DNA from: Rhizobiales bacterium 2SD
GTDB lineage: Bacteria > Pseudomonadota > Alphaproteobacteria > Rhizobiales > Beijerinckiaceae
Length of the DNA stretch: 64,000 nucleotides
Direction: 5' to 3'
Assembly (NCBI GenBank): GCA_005502805.1
Contig: SCMY01000005.1
Span: 124,001-188,000, forward strand
The position numbers and the translations under genes were made by a program. A model generated the notes under the pieces. It saw only the letters and a program-made list of their open reading frames with translations. It was not told where the DNA came from and did not search any database. Shown here one piece after another: positions 52,120-63,099 of this stretch (positions are counted from its first letter, which is position 1; each line of letters begins with the position of its first letter).

Positions 52120-53091
52120 ATGAAACTGCACTACGCCCTCGCCGCGCTCGCCGCCGGCGCCCTCTTCGCCGCTGCACCGGCGCAAGCCCAGACCAAGCTG
52201 AAATGGGCCCATGTCTACGAGACCTCCGAGCCCTTCCACACCGAGTCGGTCTGGGCTGCCGAGGAGATCAAGAAGCGCAGCAACGGCAAATACGAGATCA
52301 CCGTCTATCCGGCCTCGCAGCTCGGCAAGGAGACCGACATCAACCAGGGCCTGACGCTCGGCACGGTCGACATGATCATCTCGGGCTCGAGTTTCGCCGC
52401 CCGCGCCTATCCGCCGATCGGCGTGACCTACTATCCCTTCATCTTCCGCGGCCCCGACCACCTCCTCGCCTATGTGAAGAGCGACGTCTTCAAGGAGATG
52501 GCCAAGGGCTATGAGGAGAAGAGCGGCCACCAGATCCTGGCCGTGACCTATTACGGCACGCGCCACACCACCTCGAACAAGCCGATCAAGACCTGCGCCG
52601 ACATGAAGGGCCTGAAGATCCGCGTGCCCGACGTGCCGGCCTATCTCGCCATGCCGCGCGCCTGCGGCGCCAACACCACGCCGATCGCCTTCGCCGAGGT
52701 CTATCTCGCCTTGCAGAACGGCACCGTCGAGGCGCAGGAGAACCCGCTCAACACCATCGACGCCAAGAAGTTCTACGAGGTGCAGAAGCACATCGTGCTG
52801 ACCGGCCACATCGTCGATCATCTCAACACGGTGGTCTCGAAGCAGCTCTGGGCCAAGCTCTCGCCTGAGGATCGCAAGATCTTCACCGACGTCGCCCAGG
52901 AGGCGGCCGAGCGCGCCACCAAGAAGATCCAGGCCGACGAGGTGAAGCTGGTCCAGGTCTTCAAGGACAAGGGCCTCTCGGTCACCGAGATCGACAAGGC
53001 CGACTTCCTTGCCGCCGTCCAGAAGAACGTCAGCTTCGAGCAGTACGGCTATCGCAAGGCCGACTGGGAGCGCATCCAGGCGATCAAGTGA
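52120..53091 (+). CDS. TRAP transporter substrate-binding protein DctP
   Basis: 323 residues. The Sec signal peptide is MKLHYALAALAAGALFAAAP with cleavage near AQAQ. DctP family stretches are VYPASQLGKETDINQGLTLG and MKGLKIRVPDVPAYLAMPRA, then ALQNGTVEAQENPLNTIDAK. ATG 52120 follows AGGGAGG. It is the first gene of a dctP-dctQ-dctM cluster and follows the GntR gene by 43 bases. The ligand is probably a C4-dicarboxylate or sugar-acid-like carboxylate. Confidence 0.93.
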   Translation: MKLHYALAALAAGALFAAAPAQAQTKLKWAHVYETSEPFHTESVWAAEEIKKRSNGKYEITVYPASQLGKETDINQGLTLGTVDMIISGSSFAARAYPPIGVTYYPFIFRGPDHLLAYVKSDVFKEMAKGYEEKSGHQILAVTYYGTRHTTSNKPIKTCADMKGLKIRVPDVPAYLAMPRACGANTTPIAFAEVYLALQNGTVEAQENPLNTIDAKKFYEVQKHIVLTGHIVDHLNTVVSKQLWAKLSPEDRKIFTDVAQEAAERATKKIQADEVKLVQVFKDKGLSVTEIDKADFLAAVQKNVSFEQYGYRKADWERIQAIK

Positions 53092-53155
53092 GCTGATCCG
53101 TCTTTCCGGAGCGGGCCGCAAGGCCGGCTCCGGAACCGATGAACGTCGCCCTCTC

Positions 53156-53253
53156 CGTCATGGTCGGGCTTGTCCCGACCATCCACGCCTTCGCGCCGCT
53201 GATCGAATGCGGTGTTCAAGACGTGGGTGCTCGCCACAAGGGCGAGCATGACG
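53156..53253. repeat. CGTCAT/ATGACG inverted-repeat element, copy 7
   Basis: Between dctP and dctQ of one transporter cluster. It starts CGTCATGGTCGGGCTTGTCC and ends GGGCGAGCATGACG, with the middle CCACGCCTT and AAGACGTGG arms. It is closely related to copy 5. Confidence 0.88.
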
Positions 53254-53284
53254 GCCAGAGCGATGTCGAAGCGAAGAGTGAGCC

Positions 53285-53863
53285 ATGACCACGACGCCGG
53301 AAGTCCATACGCAAGTCACCAGCGAGGAGATCGCCCACGTCTTCGACGAGGCGCCGCCGCCCGCCGATCTCTCCGGCTATGGCCTCGAGGACTGGGTGAC
53401 GCTCGCCGCCTTCTGGCTGATGGTCGCCTGCGTCGTGGCACAGTTCTTCACCCGCTACGTCCTCAACGACAGCTTCGCCTGGACCGAGGAGATCGCGATC
53501 TACGCGCTGATCGTCGTGGTCTTCCTCGGCTCCTCTCTCTGCGTGCGCGCCTCTCGGCACATCCAGGTCGACTTCCTCTACCGCTATCTGTCACCCGGCG
53601 CGGGCCGGGCCCTCTCGACCCTCGTCGATGTCGTCCGCATCGCCTTCTTCGCCTACGGCACGGTGCTGGTTCACCGCTATGCCGAGCTCATCCCCGACGA
53701 GATGATGACGACGATCCAGTTCCCGAAATCGCCGGTGTTCTACGCCGTCGTCATCGCCTTCGCGCTGATGACGCTGCGCTCGATCCAGGTCGCCTGGCAG
53801 AACTGGCGCCGCGGCTACTCCGTGCTCGAGCGTCCCTCGGCCTTCGACGGCTCGGAGGCCTGA
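53285..53863 (+). CDS. TRAP transporter small membrane subunit DctQ
   Basis: 192 residues with four TM helices. The N-terminal ~35 residues are polar and cytoplasmic. The family motif is NDSFAWTEEIAIYALIVVVF near residue 60, followed by RASRHIQVDFLYRYLS. It pairs with DctM, whose gene begins 3 bases after this stop codon. Confidence 0.92.
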   Translation: MTTTPEVHTQVTSEEIAHVFDEAPPPADLSGYGLEDWVTLAAFWLMVACVVAQFFTRYVLNDSFAWTEEIAIYALIVVVFLGSSLCVRASRHIQVDFLYRYLSPGAGRALSTLVDVVRIAFFAYGTVLVHRYAELIPDEMMTTIQFPKSPVFYAVVIAFALMTLRSIQVAWQNWRRGYSVLERPSAFDGSEA

Positions 53864-53866
53864 CAA

Positions 53867-55273
53867 ATGCTGATCCTGCTCGGAACCTTCCTCGGCCTGA
53901 TGGTGCTCGGCGTTCCCGTCGCCATTTCGATGGCAGTCGCCTCGCTCGCCTTCATCCTCGCTTCCGGAACCGTGCCAGACGTGATCCTGGCCCAGCGCAT
54001 GATCGCCGGCGTCGAGAGCTTCCCGCTGCTGGCGGTGCCGTTCTTCATCCTCGCCGGCAATCTGATGAACATCGCCGGTGTCACCGGCCGCATCTATTCC
54101 TTCGCCGTCGCACTCGTCGGCTGGATGCGCGGCGGCCTCGCCCAGGTCAACATCATCGGCTCGGTGATCTTCTCCGGCATGTCCGGTACCGCGATCGCCG
54201 ACGCCGCCGGCATCGGCACGATCGAGATCAAGGCGATGAAGGACCATGGCTACTCTACCGAGGTCGCGGTCGGCGTCACCGCCGCCTCGGCGACGCTCGG
54301 GCCGATCATCCCGCCGTCCCTGCCTTTTGTCATCTACGGCATGATGGCGAACACCTCGATCGGCGCGCTCTTCCTCGGCGGCGTCATCCCCGGCGTGATC
54401 ATGACCCTGTTCATGATGGCGACGGTCGCGATCTTCGCCCGCATCTACAAATGGGGCTCGGACACCAAGTTCTCGCTGCGCGAGCTCGGCTCGGCCGGCA
54501 TCGAGGTGCTGGTCGTGATGGGCTTCCCGGTGCTGGCCTATGGCCTCGTCTTCGCCGGGCTCGACCCCAACCTCGCCATCGGCATCGCGCTCGCCGTGCT
54601 CCTGGCCATGGACTATTATTTCGACTTCTCGGCGGTGATGGCGCTGATGACGCCGGTCATCCTGATCGGCGGCATGACCATGGGCTGGTTCACGCCGACC
54701 GAGGCCGCCGCAGCAGCGGTGATCTGGTCGCTCTTCCTCGGCCTCGTGCGCTACCGCTCGATGACCATGCGCAGCCTGACCAAGGCGACCTTCGACACGA
54801 TCGAGACCACCGCCTCGGTGCTGTTCATCGTCACAGCCGCCTCGATCTTCGCCTGGCTGCTGACAGTGTCGCAGACGGCTCAGCTGCTCTCCGACCTGAT
54901 CCTCGGCTTCACCCAGAACAAATGGGTGTTCCTGATCCTGGTCAACCTGCTGCTGCTATTCATCGGCTGCTTCCTCGACACCATCGCGGCGATCACCATC
55001 GTGGTGCCGATCCTCTTGCCGATCGCGCTCAAGCTCGGTGTCGATCCGATCCATTTCGGCCTGATCCTGACGCTGAACCTGATGATCGGCCTGCTTCACC
55101 CGCCGCTCGGCATGGTGCTGTTCGTGCTATCGCGCGTCGCCAAGCTCTCGGTCGAGCGCACCACCATGGCGATCCTGCCCTGGCTGGTGCCGCTCTTTGC
55201 GGCGCTGTTCGCGATCACCTTCATTCCCGAGCTGACGCTCTGGTTGCCGCGCACCATGGGCATGATCCGATAG
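53867..55273 (+). CDS. TRAP transporter large permease DctM
   Basis: 468 residues with about 12 TM helices. Family stretches are FSGMSGTAIADAAGIGTIEI near residue 105, GPIIPPSLPFVIYGMMA near 145, and LNLMIGLLHPPLGMVLFVLS near 403. It carries substrate across the inner membrane with sodium, fed by DctP. A terminator hairpin follows directly. Confidence 0.94.
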   Translation: MLILLGTFLGLMVLGVPVAISMAVASLAFILASGTVPDVILAQRMIAGVESFPLLAVPFFILAGNLMNIAGVTGRIYSFAVALVGWMRGGLAQVNIIGSVIFSGMSGTAIADAAGIGTIEIKAMKDHGYSTEVAVGVTAASATLGPIIPPSLPFVIYGMMANTSIGALFLGGVIPGVIMTLFMMATVAIFARIYKWGSDTKFSLRELGSAGIEVLVVMGFPVLAYGLVFAGLDPNLAIGIALAVLLAMDYYFDFSAVMALMTPVILIGGMTMGWFTPTEAAAAAVIWSLFLGLVRYRSMTMRSLTKATFDTIETTASVLFIVTAASIFAWLLTVSQTAQLLSDLILGFTQNKWVFLILVNLLLLFIGCFLDTIAAITIVVPILLPIALKLGVDPIHFGLILTLNLMIGLLHPPLGMVLFVLSRVAKLSVERTTMAILPWLVPLFAALFAITFIPELTLWLPRTMGMIR

Positions 55274-55278
55274 GCGAC

Positions 55279-55320
55279 GGGGCGACAGGCTGGCGAAAAC
55301 GGCCAGTCGCCCCCATTTTT
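55279..55320 (+). terminator. Rho-independent terminator after dctM
   Basis: Outer stem GGGGCGA/TCGCCCC (55279-55285 with 55307-55313) and inner stem CTGGC/GCCAG with a small bulge, followed by CCATTTTT. It is positioned 6 bases after the dctM stop codon. Confidence 0.78.
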
Positions 55321-55444
55321 CCTGTCAGGAGGCTGACAGCTGCATGCGGCGGGCGTGGATCAGCTTTGCGCCGAACCCACTGTTACGCTGCCGCAGGTGA
55401 TCGCCATCTTTGTTGGCGAAGGGGCACTGCCGTGAGGTGGCGCC

Positions 55445-56668
55445 ATGCGCAGTCTGATTATGAATATGTTGTCCCGGCTCATTTGCGAGCCGCGTGTTGA
55501 TGTCGTGTTCGCCGATGGAACGCTCCATTCGGCCGGGCGAGGGTCGGCGCCTGCGATCAAGTTGCGAATTGCCGACCGCGAGACTGAATTCAAATTGGCG
55601 CTCGATCCGGAGCTGGCTCTGGGCGAGGCGGTGATGGACGGTCGTGTCATCGTCGAGCGCGGTACGATCTACCAGTTGCTCGACACCCTGGTGCGAGGCC
55701 TGTCGCGGCAGCCGCCTTCGGCCTGGGCGGGAGGGCTGAGCCGGTTGCGCACGGCCGTGCGGCGGCTGAAGCAGCACAACACCCCGGCCTGGGCGAAGAG
55801 CAACGTCCATCACCATTATGACCTGAAGAGCGAGTTCTTCCGGCTCTTCCTCGATGCCGACCAGCAGTACTCCTGTGCCTTCTTCGAGCATCCCGGCGCG
55901 ACGCTGGAAGAAGCACAGGCCGCCAAGAAGCGCCGCATCGCGGCGAAACTGGCGCTCAAGCCCGGCCAGCGCGTGCTCGACATCGGCTCCGGCTGGGGCG
56001 GGCTCGGCCTCTCGATCGCGAAGGAAACCGGGGCGAAGGTCACCGGCATCACTCTCTCCGAGGAACAGCTCGCTGCGTCCAGCAAGCGGGCCGAGGAATC
56101 GGGGCTGCCGGTCGAATTCCGCCTGCAGGACTACCGGGCGGTGCCCGAGCGCTTCGACCGGATCGTCTCGGTCGGCATGTTCGAGCATGTCGGTGTCGGC
56201 TATTACCGCGACTACTTCCGCAAGGTCCGCGAATTGCTCGAGGATGACGGCGTCGCGCTGATCCACACGATCGGCCGCAGCACGCCGCCCGGCGCGACCA
56301 ATCCCTTCATCGCCAAATACATCTTCCCCGGCGGCTATATCCCGGCGCTGTCGGAGGTTACCGCGGCGGTGGAGAAGGAAGGGTTGATCGTCACCGATGT
56401 CGAGGTGCTGCGCCTGCATTATGCCGAGACGCTGAAGGCCTGGCGCGAGCGCTTCCTCGCCCATCGCCAGGAGGCGGTCGCGATGTATGACGAGCGCTTC
56501 GCGCGGATGTGGGAATTCTATCTCGCCGCATCGGAAGCGAGCTTCCGTCATGACGGCCTCGTCGTCTTCCAGCTCCAACTGGCGAAGCGGCTCGGCACGC
56601 TGCCGATGACGCGGGATTATATGAGCGAGAAGGGCAGGGTTGCCGAGGCGGTCGACCGGGCGGCCTGA
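55445..56668 (+). CDS. cyclopropane-fatty-acyl-phospholipid synthase family methyltransferase
   Basis: 407 residues. The N-terminal lipid-binding domain (about 1-110) is followed by a SAM domain with VLDIGSGWGGLGLSIAKETG near residue 178 and the CFA signature SNVHHHYDLKSEFFRLFLDA near 118. The catalytic region VSVGMFEHVGVGYYRDYFRK and HTIGRSTPPGATNPFIAKYI are present. It adds a methylene or methyl group to unsaturated acyl chains of membrane phospholipids. No neighbour obviously belongs with it. The start could also be ATG 55460. Confidence 0.93.
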   Translation: MRSLIMNMLSRLICEPRVDVVFADGTLHSAGRGSAPAIKLRIADRETEFKLALDPELALGEAVMDGRVIVERGTIYQLLDTLVRGLSRQPPSAWAGGLSRLRTAVRRLKQHNTPAWAKSNVHHHYDLKSEFFRLFLDADQQYSCAFFEHPGATLEEAQAAKKRRIAAKLALKPGQRVLDIGSGWGGLGLSIAKETGAKVTGITLSEEQLAASSKRAEESGLPVEFRLQDYRAVPERFDRIVSVGMFEHVGVGYYRDYFRKVRELLEDDGVALIHTIGRSTPPGATNPFIAKYIFPGGYIPALSEVTAAVEKEGLIVTDVEVLRLHYAETLKAWRERFLAHRQEAVAMYDERFARMWEFYLAASEASFRHDGLVVFQLQLAKRLGTLPMTRDYMSEKGRVAEAVDRAA

Positions 56669-56739
56669 CTGCGCGATTGAGCTGCTGCAATGCCCCCGCT
56701 AGGCTCCGGCCCGGCGGGGAGCATTAGCGGAGGTCGATC

Positions 56740-58242
56740 GTGCGATCATCGATGATTGCGCTCGCGGTGGCAGTGCAGATGTCTGCTCTTCCCGCCGTTG
56801 CCCAGGAGCGCCAGCCGCGCGACGAGTTCTTCTGGCTCGGCGAGATCAACAAGGCCACCGCCGTGATCAACACGGATGAGGGTCTGCTCGACAAGGCGCT
56901 GGCCCCGCGCATCGCCGTCGGTCTGTCCAAGGTTCTGGGCGATGGCGCCAAGCCGGGAGCCAAGCGGCCTTCGACCGTGATCAGCTTCGAGCCGCTGCTA
57001 ATCGCGGCCGGCGGGCAGGAGGTGACGCTGCTGCATGCCGGCCGCTCGAGCCAGGACATGCACGCCACCTACCGCGCCGCGATCCTGCGCGACGACATGC
57101 TGGCGCTGGCCGACCAGCTCAACCGCACCACGGCGACACTGGTCGCTCTGGCGGAAAAGCATGCGGCGACCATCGTGCCGAACTACACCAATGGCGTCGC
57201 CGCCCAGCCGAACAGCCTCGGCCACGCCCTGCTCGGTCATGCCGCCGGCCTCGAGCGCGACGCGCAGCGCATCCGCGAGGCCTATGCCCGGATCGACCGC
57301 TCGGCGATGGGCACGACCGTGCTCAACGGCACGAGCTGGCCGCTCAACCGCAAGCGCATGGCCGATTATCTCGGCTTCGCCGCGATCGTCGACAATGCCT
57401 ATGACGCTGGCCAGATCTCCTCGTCCGAGCATCCGGTCGAGGCCGGCGCGATCATCACCAGCGTCGCGCTGCATGCCGGAGCCTTCGTCGAGGACGTCAT
57501 GGCGCAATACGCCTTCGCGCGGCCCTGGATGCTGCTGCAGGAAGGCGACGGCAATACCTATGTCTCCAGCGCCATGCCGCAGAAGCGCAATCCCGGCCTG
57601 CTCAACACCACGCGCCAGCAGGCCTCGACCGCGCTCTCGCTGGCGATGGGAGCGGCGATCCAGGCGCACAACATCACCCCAGGCATGAGCGATCCGAAGG
57701 ACGTCAAACCCAACAGCACGATGGTGAAGAGCGCGGTCACCGTGCTCGCCAACTGGGATCGCATCCTGAAGGGGCTGGTGATCAGCCCCGAGAGGGCGCT
57801 GGAGGAGCTGAACAGCGACTGGACCGCGTCGCAGGAGCTCGCCGACCTCTTGATGCGGAAGTACAAGCTGCCCTTCCGCGTCGGCCATCATTTCGCCTCC
57901 GATATCGTGACCCACGCCAAGGATCACGACATTAAGCCACTCGATTTTCCCTATGCCGAGGCGAAGCGGATTTATGCCGCGGCGGTCAAGGGCACGGAGT
58001 ATCCGGCCGAGCTGCCGATCAGCGAGGCGGAGTTCCGCGCGGCGCTCGATCCCGTCGCGATCGTGCGCAGCCGCGCGACCGTCGGCGGGCCGCAGCCGGT
58101 CGAGATGGAGCGGATGCTAGCCGGGGCCAAAGGCCGGATCGCGGAGCAGGGCGCCTGGATCAAGGAGCGGCGCGAGAAGATCGCGGCCTCACTCGCCCGG
58201 CTCGACAAGGATTTCGAAGCGCTGCAGGCGAAGGCGCAATAG
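56740..58242 (+). CDS. exported lyase of the argininosuccinate lyase / fumarase superfamily
   Basis: 500 residues. The start is GTG 56740, 6 bases after GGAGG. The N-terminus RSSMIALAVAVQMSALPAVA has the shape of a Sec signal peptide with AVA cleavage before QERQPRDEF. The superfamily signature loop is SSAMPQKRNPG (residues 276-286). Region 1 reads AGRSSQDMHATYRAA where argininosuccinate lyases have RSRNDQ, and region 2 lacks the usual THLQ-AQP but keeps AAQP. So it is an elimination-type lyase whose substrate differs from argininosuccinate. The predicted periplasmic location is unusual for this superfamily. Confidence 0.8.
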   Translation: MRSSMIALAVAVQMSALPAVAQERQPRDEFFWLGEINKATAVINTDEGLLDKALAPRIAVGLSKVLGDGAKPGAKRPSTVISFEPLLIAAGGQEVTLLHAGRSSQDMHATYRAAILRDDMLALADQLNRTTATLVALAEKHAATIVPNYTNGVAAQPNSLGHALLGHAAGLERDAQRIREAYARIDRSAMGTTVLNGTSWPLNRKRMADYLGFAAIVDNAYDAGQISSSEHPVEAGAIITSVALHAGAFVEDVMAQYAFARPWMLLQEGDGNTYVSSAMPQKRNPGLLNTTRQQASTALSLAMGAAIQAHNITPGMSDPKDVKPNSTMVKSAVTVLANWDRILKGLVISPERALEELNSDWTASQELADLLMRKYKLPFRVGHHFASDIVTHAKDHDIKPLDFPYAEAKRIYAAAVKGTEYPAELPISEAEFRAALDPVAIVRSRATVGGPQPVEMERMLAGAKGRIAEQGAWIKERREKIAASLARLDKDFEALQAKAQ

Positions 58243-58269
58243 CTGGGTTGGCCCGCAGGCGCTCCGCTC

Positions 58270-59409
58270 TCAGGCCGGCGCCGGCCCGACATAGCGGGCG
58301 CGCGGGCGGATCAATCGGCCGGTCTCGTTCTGCTCCAGCGCATGGGCGAGCCAGCCGGTGCAGCGCGCCGCCGCGAAGATCTGGAATGGGGCGGTGTCCG
58401 GCAAGGCGAGCTTCGCCGCCAGCGCCGACAGGGCGAAGTCGATGTTCGGCTCCTCGCCCGTCAAGGTCGCGATGGCGACTTGCGCCTGCGCATAGGCTGG
58501 AGGCGGCTCGAACGCCGCGAGCAAAGCGCGCGCCCGCGGGTCGCCATCGGGATAGAGCGGATGGCCGAAGCCCGGCAGCTTGGCTCCGGCTTCCAGCCTC
58601 GCCGTGAGCGCGGTCTCCAGCCCGTCGCGCGCGATCTCCCGCATCAGCGCCAGCACGCGCGGCGCGACGCCGCCATGCAAGGGGCCGGACAGCGCGGCGA
58701 GCCCGGCCAAGGCGCAGGCGGCGAGCGAGGCGCCGGTCGAGGCGGTGACGCGCGCGGCGAAGGTCGAGGCGTTGAGCTCATGGTCGGCGAGCAGCACCAG
58801 CGCCCGCCGGATCGGCTCGGACCCTTCAGCCTCGCAGCCCCAGGCCCGCGCCAGCCGGGCATGGATCGGCCCTTCGCCCGGCCCGCCGGCGATGGCGTCG
58901 ACCAGCGTGTCCAGCACCGCGGCGGCTTCCAGATAGAGCGCCTTCTTGGAACGCCCCGCCATCGGCCGGTCGATGGCGGTCCGCGCCGCGATCACCGCGA
59001 AGATGCGCGCCAGCGGCTCCCCCGGCGGCACGATCGTCGCCAGCGGCGGGAAGCGCTGCGTGCCGCAATCCCAGAGCAGGCGGGCGACGTCCTCCAGCTT
59101 GGCGCCCTCGGCGAGACGCGCCGCGTCCTGGCCGCGATACCAGAGGCCGCCGCGCTCGATCGTGGTGATGGCGGAGGCGAGCACCGGCTCGCCATAGGCG
59201 ATCGCGTCCTCGGCGATCGCCGCCGGGCGCCGGCCGCGCGCCTTGCGATGCTCCAGCCGGGCGACGTCCTCGGCCCGGTAGAGGCTGCGGCGCGAATCGC
59301 CTTCATCGCCGCGTGCCTCGATCAGCCCACGGCTGACATAGGCATAGAGCGTCTGCGGCTTCAGCCCGAGCCGGGCCATCGCCTCCTGTGCCGTCAGCCA
59401 GTCCTGCAT
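58270..59409 (-). CDS. citrate synthase-family protein with N-terminal HTH domain
   Basis: 379 residues from ATG 59409 (ribosome site GGAGGAGCG). Residues 1-60 form a MerR/excisionase-like winged HTH (WLTAQEAMARLGLKPQTLYA, then SRRSLYRAEDVARLEHRKA). The rest is citrate-synthase fold with the catalytic set DHELNASTFAARV, PGFGHPLYPDGDPRARALL and EEPNIDFALSALAAKL, so both histidines and the aspartate are present. It may be an enzyme, a regulator or both. It is divergent from a second citrate synthase homologue across an AT-rich spacer. Confidence 0.85.
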   Translation of the reverse strand: MQDWLTAQEAMARLGLKPQTLYAYVSRGLIEARGDEGDSRRSLYRAEDVARLEHRKARGRRPAAIAEDAIAYGEPVLASAITTIERGGLWYRGQDAARLAEGAKLEDVARLLWDCGTQRFPPLATIVPPGEPLARIFAVIAARTAIDRPMAGRSKKALYLEAAAVLDTLVDAIAGGPGEGPIHARLARAWGCEAEGSEPIRRALVLLADHELNASTFAARVTASTGASLAACALAGLAALSGPLHGGVAPRVLALMREIARDGLETALTARLEAGAKLPGFGHPLYPDGDPRARALLAAFEPPPAYAQAQVAIATLTGEEPNIDFALSALAAKLALPDTAPFQIFAAARCTGWLAHALEQNETGRLIRPRARYVGPAPA

Positions 59410-59506
59410 CGCTCCTCCGCTGGATATATTGATTATATTGTTCAAGATTGATTGTTGCAACGCACAAGCCGATTTTCGGGATGACTGCTTTTGAGGAGTT
59501 CATGTC
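59410..59506. promoter_or_regulatory. AT-rich divergent control region with direct repeats
   Basis: 97-base spacer between two divergent citrate synthase-family genes. It is much more AT-rich than the flanking genes. ATTGATT occurs twice (59428-59434 and 59447-59453), 19 bases apart, in similar surroundings. These are candidate binding sites for the HTH domain of the neighbouring protein and probably overlap both promoters. Confidence 0.5.
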
Positions 59507-60583
59507 ATGTCCGATGGTCTCGATGACGTCGTCGCCGCCCATACCGTGCTCTCGGAGGTCGACGGCGCTGCCGGCCGCCTGGTGATCCGCGGCCATAGCC
59601 TCGCCGAGCTCGCCGGCCGCACCAGCTTCGAGGAGATGGCGGTGTTGATGTTCGACGGCTTGCTGCCCGGCCTGCCGCAGGGCCGTGAGTTCTTGGCAGC
59701 GCTTGGCAAGGCCCGCGCCGATCTCTTCGGCATCGTCGAGCGCACCGCGCTCTCAGACGATCTCGGGCCGGTCGAGGCCATTCGCGCTTGGACCGCGCAG
59801 ATCGCCGATGGCGAGGGGCCCGAGACGGCGCTCAAGCTGCTCGCCGCGCCTGCTGTCTTCACCGCCGCTGCGGTGCGCAAGCGGCGCGGGCTTGCGCTGA
59901 TCGCGCCCGATCCGGCGCTGTCGCAGGCCGCCGACACGCTGCGCATGCTGCGCGGCGAAGCGCCGACGGCAGCGCAGGCTGCGGCCCTCGACAGCTACCT
60001 CGTCACTGTCGCCGATCACGGCCTCAACGCCTCGACCTTCGCGGCGCGCGTCGTCGCCTCGACCCGGGCCGGGCTGGTCTCGGCCGTGCTCGCCGGGATC
60101 AGCGCGCTGAAGGGCCCGCTGCATGGCGGGGCGCCGGGGCCGGTGATCGAGATGCTCGATGCGATCGGCGAGCCGGCCAACGCCCGCGCCTGGCTGGAGG
60201 ATGCGCTGGATCGCGGCGAGCGGCTGATGGGCTTCGGCCACCGCATTTATCGTGTCCGCGATCCGCGGGCCGATGCGCTGAAGCAGGCGATCGCCAGGCT
60301 CGGCGCTGATGCCGGGCGCCTGCGCCATGCCGAGGCGGTCGAGCAGGCGGCGCTCGCCATCCTGCGCGAGCGCAAGCCGGGCCGCTCGCTCGAGACCAAT
60401 GTCGAGTTCTACACGGCGCTGCTGCTGGAGGCGCTCGGCTTCCCGCCGGAGGCCTTCACCTGCGTCTTCGCGCTCGGCCGCACCACCGGCTGGCTCGCCC
60501 ATGCCCGCGAGCAGATCGAGACCGGCCGCCTGATCCGGCCGCAATCGGTCTATGTCGGCCCGCAGCCGCGGCAGGCGGCTTGA
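59507..60583 (+). CDS. citrate synthase-family protein with Glu in place of the catalytic Asp
   Basis: 358 residues. Citrate-synthase motifs are DHGLNASTFAARVVAST (His171), LKGPLHGGAPGPV, and MGFGHRIYRVRDPRA (His245). The third catalytic residue, Asp in NVDF of typical enzymes, is Glu300 in LETNVEFYTALLLEAL. It is shorter than TCA-cycle citrate synthases (~430 residues) and like the 2-methylcitrate type in size. ATG 59507 follows GAGGAG. It is paralogous to the divergent HTH-citrate synthase. Confidence 0.88.
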   Translation: MSDGLDDVVAAHTVLSEVDGAAGRLVIRGHSLAELAGRTSFEEMAVLMFDGLLPGLPQGREFLAALGKARADLFGIVERTALSDDLGPVEAIRAWTAQIADGEGPETALKLLAAPAVFTAAAVRKRRGLALIAPDPALSQAADTLRMLRGEAPTAAQAAALDSYLVTVADHGLNASTFAARVVASTRAGLVSAVLAGISALKGPLHGGAPGPVIEMLDAIGEPANARAWLEDALDRGERLMGFGHRIYRVRDPRADALKQAIARLGADAGRLRHAEAVEQAALAILRERKPGRSLETNVEFYTALLLEALGFPPEAFTCVFALGRTTGWLAHAREQIETGRLIRPQSVYVGPQPRQAA

Positions 60584-61431: not shown

Positions 61432-63099
61432 TCAGCCCAGGATGCCGGGCAGGTTCAGACCCTTCTCCCGGGCGCAGTCGAGTGCGATGTCGTAGCCGGC
61501 ATCGGCATGGCGCATCACGCCGGTGGCCGGGTCGTTCCAGAGCACGCGCGACAGGCGGGCGGCTGCGTCATCCGTGCCGTCGGCGCAGATCACGACGCCC
61601 GAATGCTGCGAGAAGCCCATGCCGACACCGCCGCCATGATGCAGCGAGACCCACGTCGCGCCGGACGCCGTGTTGAGCAGGGCGTTGAGCAGCGGCCAGT
61701 CGGAGACCGCGTCCGAGCCGTCCTTCATCGCCTCGGTCTCGCGGTTCGGAGAGGCGACCGAGCCGGAATCGAGATGGTCGCGGCCGATCACGACCGGCGC
61801 CTTGAGCTCGCCGGTCCTGACCATCTCGTTGAAGGCGAGGCCGAGCCGGTGGCGATCGCCGAGGCCGACCCAGCAGATCCGCGCCGGCACGCCCTGGAAC
61901 GAGATGCGCTCGCGCGCCATGTCGAGCCAGTTGTGCAGGTGCTTGTTGTCGGGCAGCAGCTCCTTCACCTTGGCGTCGGTCTTGTAGATGTCCTCCGGGT
62001 CGCCGGAGAGGGCGGCCCAGCGGAACGGGCCGATGCCGCGGCAGAACAGCGGGCGGATATAGGCCGGCACGAAGCCCGGGAAGGCGAAGGCGTTCTCCAG
62101 CCCCTCTTCCTTGGCGATCTGGCGGATGTTGTTGCCGTAGTCGAAGGTCGGGATGCCCATGTCCTGGAAGGCGATCATCGCCTCGACATGCTCGCGCATC
62201 GAGGCGCGCGCCGCCTTCTCGACGGACTTCGGATTGCCCTCGCGCGCCTGCCGCCACTGGCCCATGGTCCAGCCCTTCGGCAGGTAGCCGTTGACCGGGT
62301 CATGCGCCGAGGTCTGGTCGGTGACCATGTCGGGCCGGATGCCGCGGCGGACCATCTCGGGCAGGATCTCGGCGCAGTTGCCGAGCAGGCCGACCGACTT
62401 CGCCTCGCCGTTCTTCGTCCAGCGCTCGATCATCTCCAGCGCCTCGTCGAGGCTCGAGGCCTTCTCGTCGAGATAGCGGGTGCGCAGGCGGAAATCGATC
62501 GAGTCCGGGTTGCATTCGACGGCGAGGCAGGAGGCGCCGGCCATCACCGCGGCGAGAGGCTGGGCGCCGCCCATGCCGCCGAGGCCGCCGGTCAGCACCC
62601 ATTTGCCCTTGAGATTGCCGCCATAGTGCTGGCGGCCGGCCTCGACGAAGGTCTCGTAGGTGCCCTGCACGATGCCTTGCGTGCCGATATAGATCCAGGA
62701 GCCGGCCGTCATCTGGCCGTACATGGCGAGCCCCTTCTTATCGAGCTCGTTGAAATGGTCCCAGTTGGCCCAGTGCGGCACGAGGTTGGAATTGGCGATC
62801 AGGACGCGCGGCGCGTCCTTGTGCGTGCGGAACACGCCGACCGGCTTGCCGGACTGGACGAGTAGGGTCTCGTCGGCCTCGAGCTGGCGCAGGGCGGCGA
62901 CGATGCGGTCGAAATCCTCCCAGGAGCGGGCGGCGCGGCCGATGCCGCCATAGACCACGAGCTCCTGCGGGTTCTCGGCGACATCAGGATGCAGGTTGTT
63001 CATCAGCATGCGCAGCGGCGCTTCGGTCAGCCAGCTCTTGGCGCTGAGCTCGGTGCCGGTGGCTGGGCGGATGACGCGGGTGTTGTCCAGGCGGGTCAT
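61432..63099 (-). CDS. hutU: urocanate hydratase
   Basis: 555-residue NAD-containing urocanase, step two of histidine degradation. Typical stretches are [20 protein letters not shown] at the start, then [19 protein letters not shown] near residue 170 and [20 protein letters not shown] near residue 405. The length is standard. The ATG overlaps the hutG stop codon (ATGA), so the two are co-translated. Confidence 0.97.

Follow-up and report, generated by a model that had tools for sequence, protein, structure and literature searches.

Does a lyase of the argininosuccinate lyase (ASL) branch act outside the cytoplasm, and if so, upon what kind of substrate? The question is raised by a gene in the stretch of DNA analysed here (64,000 nucleotides; hereafter the window), whose closest named records are those of Bosea. 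The product of the gene is a member of the ASL branch of the aspartase/fumarase superfamily, and it opens with a predicted signal peptide. We know of no described exported member of this superfamily. For the phrases tried, no paper on periplasmic, secreted or exported superfamily members was found in the open-licence literature, and the clade that we call exported, after its predicted leaders, is named in none of the listed titles and abstract openings on exported or related members. It is the exported variant that is new, the underlying kind of enzyme being known.

The lyase gene and its predicted leader

The initial annotation had proposed a lyase of the ASL superfamily at this position, with a good ribosome-binding site six bases ahead of a GTG start and a signal peptide with cleavage at AVA-Q, and each of these elements was recovered (Table 1). 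The protein matches the Pfam families Lyase_1 (3.1e-25) and ASL_C2 (3.9e-09), both over cutoff. Its leader, VRSSMIALAVAVQMSALPAVA with Gln following the cleavage site, is of the Sec type and contains no twin-arginine motif; n-region, hydrophobic core and AxA cleavage sequence are all present, and are kept in orthologues, by the custom rule described below. A scan of positions 55100-58500 for promoters and terminators returned no terminator-like site and a single promoter-like one, on the opposite strand.

Table 1. Features of the lyase gene and its surroundings, in window positions.
Feature	Position	Strand	Remarks and basis
TRAP transporter DctP-DctQ-DctM, upstream neighbour	52120..55273	+	Pfam
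Cyclopropane-fatty-acid synthase-like (CFA) gene, directly upstream	55445..56668	+	Pfam CMAS
Ribosome-binding site GGAGG	56729..56733	+	six bases, then GTG; direct sequence read
Putatively exported ASL-branch lyase gene	56740..58242	+	GTG start, 500 aa; ORF read, Pfam, model pLDDT 87.3
Signal peptide, residues 1-21	56740..56802	+	predicted cleavage AVA-Q; rule-based test
C1 motif R102-S-S-Q-D-M107 (ASL: RSRNDQ)	57043..57060	+	alignment
C2 motif Y149-T-N-G-V153 (ASL: YTHLQ)	57184..57198	+	alignment
SS-loop, residues 273-289	57556..57606	+	Ser276, Lys282, Asn284 kept; Gly286, Asn289 changed
Clade-specific segment H310-N311...M316...D318...K320	57667..57699	+	all five in 105/105 close sequences
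Two divergent citrate-synthase-type genes, one with HTH_17, downstream of the lyase	58270-60583		Pfam
Urocanase gene (histidine degradation), near the window end	61432-63099		Pfam

Leaders among relatives were scored by a rule of our own (not SignalP) that demands a positive n-region, a nine-residue hydrophobic core and an AxA-type cleavage site, and permits any upstream ATG, GTG or TTG as the start codon. The initial annotation had made its reading of the leader depend upon orthologues keeping it, and of the 106 distinct close sequences (at least 41% identity, window included) 105 do so. None of 25 distinct distant relatives is positive with identical freedom of start codon, and the background rate of the rule is 75 in 664 neighbouring ORFs of at least 250 residues, or 105 of the 664 when a start is allowed at any Met up to residue 40. 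Leaders and linkers vary widely in the close sequences (26-101 residues from the start to Asp28), with Ala/Pro-rich linkers after the leader in many Achromobacter and Bordetella relatives, and conservation sets in at about RDxFFW; such divergence ahead of a conserved body argues that the leader is not a copied mis-annotation. Few of the 105 leaders have RR near the start (6) or a lipobox-like match (4), which favours Sec and ordinary cleavage over the other routes, and we infer that the lyase is secreted through Sec to the periplasm. Excerpts of PMC11533796 describe three 'argininosuccinate lyases' as predicted Tat substrates in a periplasmic fraction of A. xylosoxidans, for which heavy cytosolic contamination is stated, and nine substrates as lower in a tatC mutant, such lyases being cited as an example in the discussion. 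If those lyases belonged to the exported clade, these tatC data would speak for Tat and not Sec; one A. xylosoxidans genome holds one close and one distant match only.

Independent support for export of the clade comes from the near absence of cysteine. The core has no cysteine in 102 of the 106 close sequences and one in the other four, as against 0 to 8 in the distant relatives, where zero is found in 1 of 25 only. Mid-distance relatives were retrieved at 37-49% identity, the truncated L183 and L198 being left out, and 21 of them at 40-48% (two of which, L124 and L126, are shared with the 106) were scored for the leader: 16 are positive, and a hydrophobic, leader-like stretch is visible by eye in all five that fail. 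In group B (L124, L126, L186-L193 and relatives) two cysteines arranged as C-x5-C, e.g. PCKTTQEC, stand between the leader and the lyase domain, a location just after the leader that fits an oxidising compartment. Two further proteins at 37% identity, L199 and L200, have no rule-positive leader and one or two cysteines.

The sole leaderless close sequence (L077:9578-10981) comes second in a tandem pair from a MAG labelled Rhodospirillum; the first copy (L077:7986-9500) has a leader. The leaderless copy starts MARDEFFW, is 64% identical to the window protein and is among the four close sequences with one cysteine. The pair constitutes a natural test of one enzyme in two compartments.

Family, fold and active site

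The window protein reached the cutoff of no model in an NCBIfam scan. Its top match is XcbC of coenzyme M synthesis, at 175.2 bits against a cutoff of 575; on the argH model (TIGR00838) it scores 166.7 bits against 279.5, and on the nitrosuccinate lyase model 20.9 bits against 650. The same genome possesses a canonical ArgH (G000:C4) with 602.3 bits on the argH model, and given that this protein also outscores the window protein on the XcbC model (237 bits), the XcbC match is unspecific. Another leaderless ASL-like lyase of the genome, L132 (G000:C26:219145-220527), lies beside an ABC transporter ATPase gene and scores 284.2 bits on argH, barely over the cutoff; set beside the score of the true ArgH, this suggests that the cutoff may admit paralogues.

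An AlphaFold2 monomer model built on an alignment of 53 sequences has a mean pLDDT of 87.3 and a pTM of 0.87, with weak spots (pLDDT <50) at residues 13-23 and in the SS-loop at 275-282. Foldseek returned EDDS lyase entries as the nearest structures (TM 0.81-0.82), which places the model within the superfamily fold, and among the candidates that Foldseek supplied EDDS lyase 6g3e ranked first, with a Z of 39.3 and an rmsd of 2.6 over 459 residues; delta-crystallins and ASL came next. Members of the superfamily are homotetramers in which each active site is shared by three subunits.

Active-site residues were compared in an alignment of 133 sequences, comprising 105 close ones (window included, the stop-interrupted L005 dropped), 25 distant ones, EDDS lyase, E. 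coli ASL and a second window row as reference. Ser103, Asp106, Thr150, Ser276, Ser277, Lys282 and Asn284 are invariant throughout all 105 close and 25 distant sequences, EDDS lyase and E. coli ASL. The signature loop, described as intact in the initial annotation, is indeed so in its core (VSSAMPQKRNP), and VSSAMPQKRN fits the superfamily fingerprint GSSxxPxKxN (PMC13411527, excerpt) at every fixed position except the first Gly, here Val275. The departures from RSRNDQ and THLQ that had been noted are likewise real (RSSQDM and TNGV), Gln105 standing for the Asn of the ASL motif; furthermore, Gly286 takes the place of an Asp that EDDS lyase shares with E. coli ASL, and in a mapping that was checked the counterpart of Met316 is Tyr320 of EDDS lyase.

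The most telling changes concern the leaving group. In the superfamily, the Ser of the SS-loop serves as the base, and a His, usually within a His-Glu pair, protonates the leaving group (PMC13411527, excerpt). The His-Glu pair of ArgH is absent from the exported proteins. Position 151, the site of the ASL leaving-group His, is Asn in all 105 close sequences, as against His in 23 and Cys in 2 of the 25 distant ones; position 289, the site of its Glu partner, is Asn in 98, Ile in 5 and Met in 2 of the close sequences and Glu in every distant one. In a wider survey of 44 exported-clade rows, the leaderless tandem copy included, position 151 is Asn, or Trp/Met in four rows of group C (L194-L197), and never His, and position 289 is Asn, Thr, Met, Gln, Ile, Val or Leu, and never Glu. 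L199 and L200 retain both His151 and Glu289; they have Gln105, Gly-Val at 152-153, His310-Asn311, Met316 and Asp318 in common with the exported lyases, and differ from them in this retained pair and in the leader and cysteine features given above. By motif, we take His162 of duck delta-crystallin to correspond to position 151, and PDB entry 1dcn bears the title 'inactive mutant H162N'. As the change of His to Asn here is that of the inactive delta-crystallin, argininosuccinate lyase activity is unlikely, and the substrate is probably other than argininosuccinate.

To that extent the different substrate proposed in the initial annotation stands. The analogue it offered, EDDS lyase (Chelativorans sp. 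BNC1; PDB 6g3d-6g3i and 6rx8), is also the nearest solved structure by sequence (6.6e-34; profile 4.1e-57) as well as by fold, and resembles the window protein in that the leaving-group His is absent (Gln159 in its stead) while the Ser base and SS-loop are kept. EDDS lyase differs in retaining the Glu partner and, according to the initial annotation, in being cytosolic, and identity to the window protein amounts to 22-24% only. Six of its residues, R112, N113, Q159, N288, D290 and Y320, have been engineered as lying near the substrate (PMC12363623, excerpt); N288 alone is kept, as Asn284, the other five being Ser104, Gln105, Asn151, Gly286 and Met316 here. With so low an identity and five of the six engineered positions changed, EDDS is not implied as the substrate. 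The ArgH/delta-crystallin group shares with the window protein the fold, the Lyase_1 and ASL_C2 domains and the SS-loop core; the exported lyase differs in falling below the argH cutoff, in missing the His-Glu pair, in its leader and in being nearly free of cysteine.

The proposed reaction and its rivals

On balance, we consider it probable that the lyase is exported via Sec to the periplasm and there cleaves, by beta-elimination, a substituted succinate that is not argininosuccinate, with fumarate and a leaving group as products. The conserved Ser base and carboxylate residues point to a working beta-elimination on a substituted succinate, and the loss of the acid pair suggests a leaving group that needs no protonation. 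Having reached the periplasm through Sec, the protein would assemble there into the usual superfamily tetramer. Ser276 of the mobile SS-loop would take the proton, and Lys282, Asn284, Ser103 and Thr150 would hold the carboxylates, roles that we presume by transfer from ASL. Fumarate would then depart along with a group that can leave unassisted by a His-Glu acid, i.e. an already protonated amine, a thiolate or a similarly good leaving group; in EDDS lyase, with Gln at the His position, the amine may leave already protonated. The dicarboxylate product would subsequently be imported by the ordinary dicarboxylate transporters of the cell. The tetramer, the catalysis, the fumarate product and the scavenging role of the exported lyase are what we infer from sequence comparison. 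Such a clade would be a sign that soil bacteria handle some substituted succinate extracytoplasmically, and biocatalysis would gain from it a natural source of lyases that lack the His.

A special case of this explanation, which we regard as rather unlikely in so specific a form, is an exported C-S lyase that frees fumarate from extracellular succinates substituted at sulfur, S-(2-succino)cysteine and mercaptosuccinate being examples. The loss of the His-Glu pair would then be accounted for, since a thiolate can depart unaided by an acid. An S-(2-succino) lyase (2SL), assigned by its authors to the lyase class I family, is established; it releases fumarate from a succinated thiol, prefers the N-acetylated compound and sits in yxe gene clusters (PMC9706529, excerpt). 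In the sections drawn upon of PMC5373536, a 'putative argininosuccinate lyase', MIM_c16970, a candidate member of the clade, is 6.4-fold up in Advenella on mercaptosuccinate as compared with succinate, and earlier work is cited on growth of a Rhodopseudomonas strain with the fumarate that remains once mercaptosuccinate has lost sulfide, and on isolates of Achromobacter xylosoxidans and Variovorax paradoxus that grow on mercaptosuccinate itself. Achromobacter and Variovorax are both genera that hold the exported clade. However, the same sections ascribe the breakdown of mercaptosuccinate in Advenella to a dioxygenase, and no sulfur-metabolism gene is prominent among the neighbours scanned, which are part of all neighbours.

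The loss of the acid pair can also be read as loss of catalysis altogether, the fold having been exported for ligand binding or some other role as in inactive delta-crystallin. The exact match of His to Asn with H162N of 1dcn and the disappearance of the Glu partner as well speak in favour of such a pseudoenzyme, which we nonetheless think unlikely, as the Ser base, Lys, Asn and SS-loop core are identical in 105 of 105 sequences, EDDS lyase works with a Gln in place of the His (PMC12363623, excerpt), and the nitrosuccinate lyase CreD, a superfamily member devoid of that His (and a weak match by the score given above), is active too (PMC13411527, excerpt). A non-succinyl substrate or a non-fumarate product, of the sort named for trans-aconitate decarboxylase (Tad1) or XcbC, could draw upon the place of XcbC at the head of the NCBIfam matches, by a small margin over argH, and upon the five altered substrate-near positions of EDDS lyase; with the XcbC cutoff far off and the presumed carboxylate-binding residues kept, we deem this quite unlikely. 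That the protein is simply a cytoplasmic argininosuccinate lyase whose start was mis-called, in line with the name given to six of 14 plasmid records with 60-80% matches, is scarcely credible in the face of a leader in all but one of the 106 close sequences, an argH cutoff missed in a genome that has a true ArgH, and the loss of the catalytic His and Glu across the clade.

Origin, distribution and gene neighbourhood

In a quick IQ-TREE on 72 proteins, a single branch (SH-aLRT 97) sets off the 44 exported-clade rows; L199 and L200 adjoin them, and the joint set of 46 is supported at 100. In a stricter tree, from which six long or odd rows and columns 151, 286 and 289 were removed, support for the exported branch is 91, below the 95 mark; the starred branch there sets only the 39 rows of groups A and B apart, leaving group C on the side of L199/L200 and the distant rows, and the placement of L199/L200 outside the small group C lacks firm support. 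The leaderless L077 copy groups with its partner within the exported branch, a case of secondary leader loss. The simplest reading would be a single gain of the leader, on approximately the same branch as the loss of the His-Glu pair; it rests on the two leaderless proteins L199 and L200, which at 79% identity to one another come close to a single observation. A more far-reaching account, which we put forward tentatively and think improbable as a whole, would have a distinct extracytoplasmic branch arise once, a leaderless ASL-like lyase gaining a leader and losing the His-Glu pair on the same branch to become a periplasmic C-S (or bulky C-N) lyase that releases fumarate and salvages succinated compounds from outside the cell. 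The leaderless relatives, together with the leaderless tandem copy, provide a clean test of the active-site changes that accompany export.

Within the genus, 20 of 37 genomes, counting the own one and the stop-interrupted copy of G029, have an orthologue of at least 67% identity; of 24 genomes from other families of the order, none has. In draws at E 1e-80 that overlap one another and include the own genome, hits were seen in 1 of 385 genomes for the class, 5 of 398 for the phylum and 5 of 397 for the order; at E 1e-60, they were seen in 22 of 349 for one family of the phylum and 18 of 117 for one genus of the same order. A contig scan yielded 195 matching stretches; relatives account for 184, and the best 80 of the 184 (69-94% identity) were kept. 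The 14 plasmid records carry the labels 'argininosuccinate lyase' (6), 'lyase family protein' (4) or none (4), and public labels such as the first suggest that the exported branch as a whole is partly mis-named. It would appear that the gene is scattered and cuts across lineages, a pattern common among accessory catabolic genes. One Bosea copy at 93% identity (L005 / L163, genome G029) has one in-frame TAG, and this strain may therefore have lost the gene.

The initial annotation had further tied the lyase to the nearby TRAP carboxylate transporter, and this link lacks support. Six close Bosea loci (L021-L024, L162, L163) retain the order TRAP-CFA-lyase-citrate synthase, and when the TRAP genes of the window were sought in 103 loci, they accompanied the lyase only in this close subgroup. 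L033 and L039 have distant TRAP genes at 25-37% identity. More distant orthologues (67-73%) occur in 15 Bosea genomes, and in the 14 of these that were covered no TRAP genes were found. Functional coupling of TRAP transporter and lyase was consequently rejected, the linkage being confined to one Bosea subgroup.

A search for conserved neighbours in 80 genome loci (custom ORF choice) found no general cluster besides the lyase, Pfam families having been assigned to a part of the neighbours. A TctC-type cluster is present in 29 of the 80, and TctC-type genes are very numerous in Bordetella-like genomes. Among the matches listed for 27 hand-picked same-strand upstream genes are 2 TctC, 1 DctM and 1 SDF, and the commonest families in 19 hand-picked downstream genes are GntR and FCD, with 3 each. 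As the gene context is unconserved, no pathway points to the substrate. Two local arrangements, each found only among close relatives at high identity, deserve mention as leads. In group C (L205:60-8190, L204 and L206, three close relatives), a branched-chain-type ABC transporter, DUF2848 and an amidase precede the lyase, a neighbourhood that is possibly a catabolic cluster. In group B (L127:6145-11745 and close relatives), the lyase directly follows a saccharopine-dehydrogenase-like gene, with an ornithine/DAP-type decarboxylase gene nearby, the dehydrogenase and decarboxylase presumably being as in alternative spermidine synthesis.
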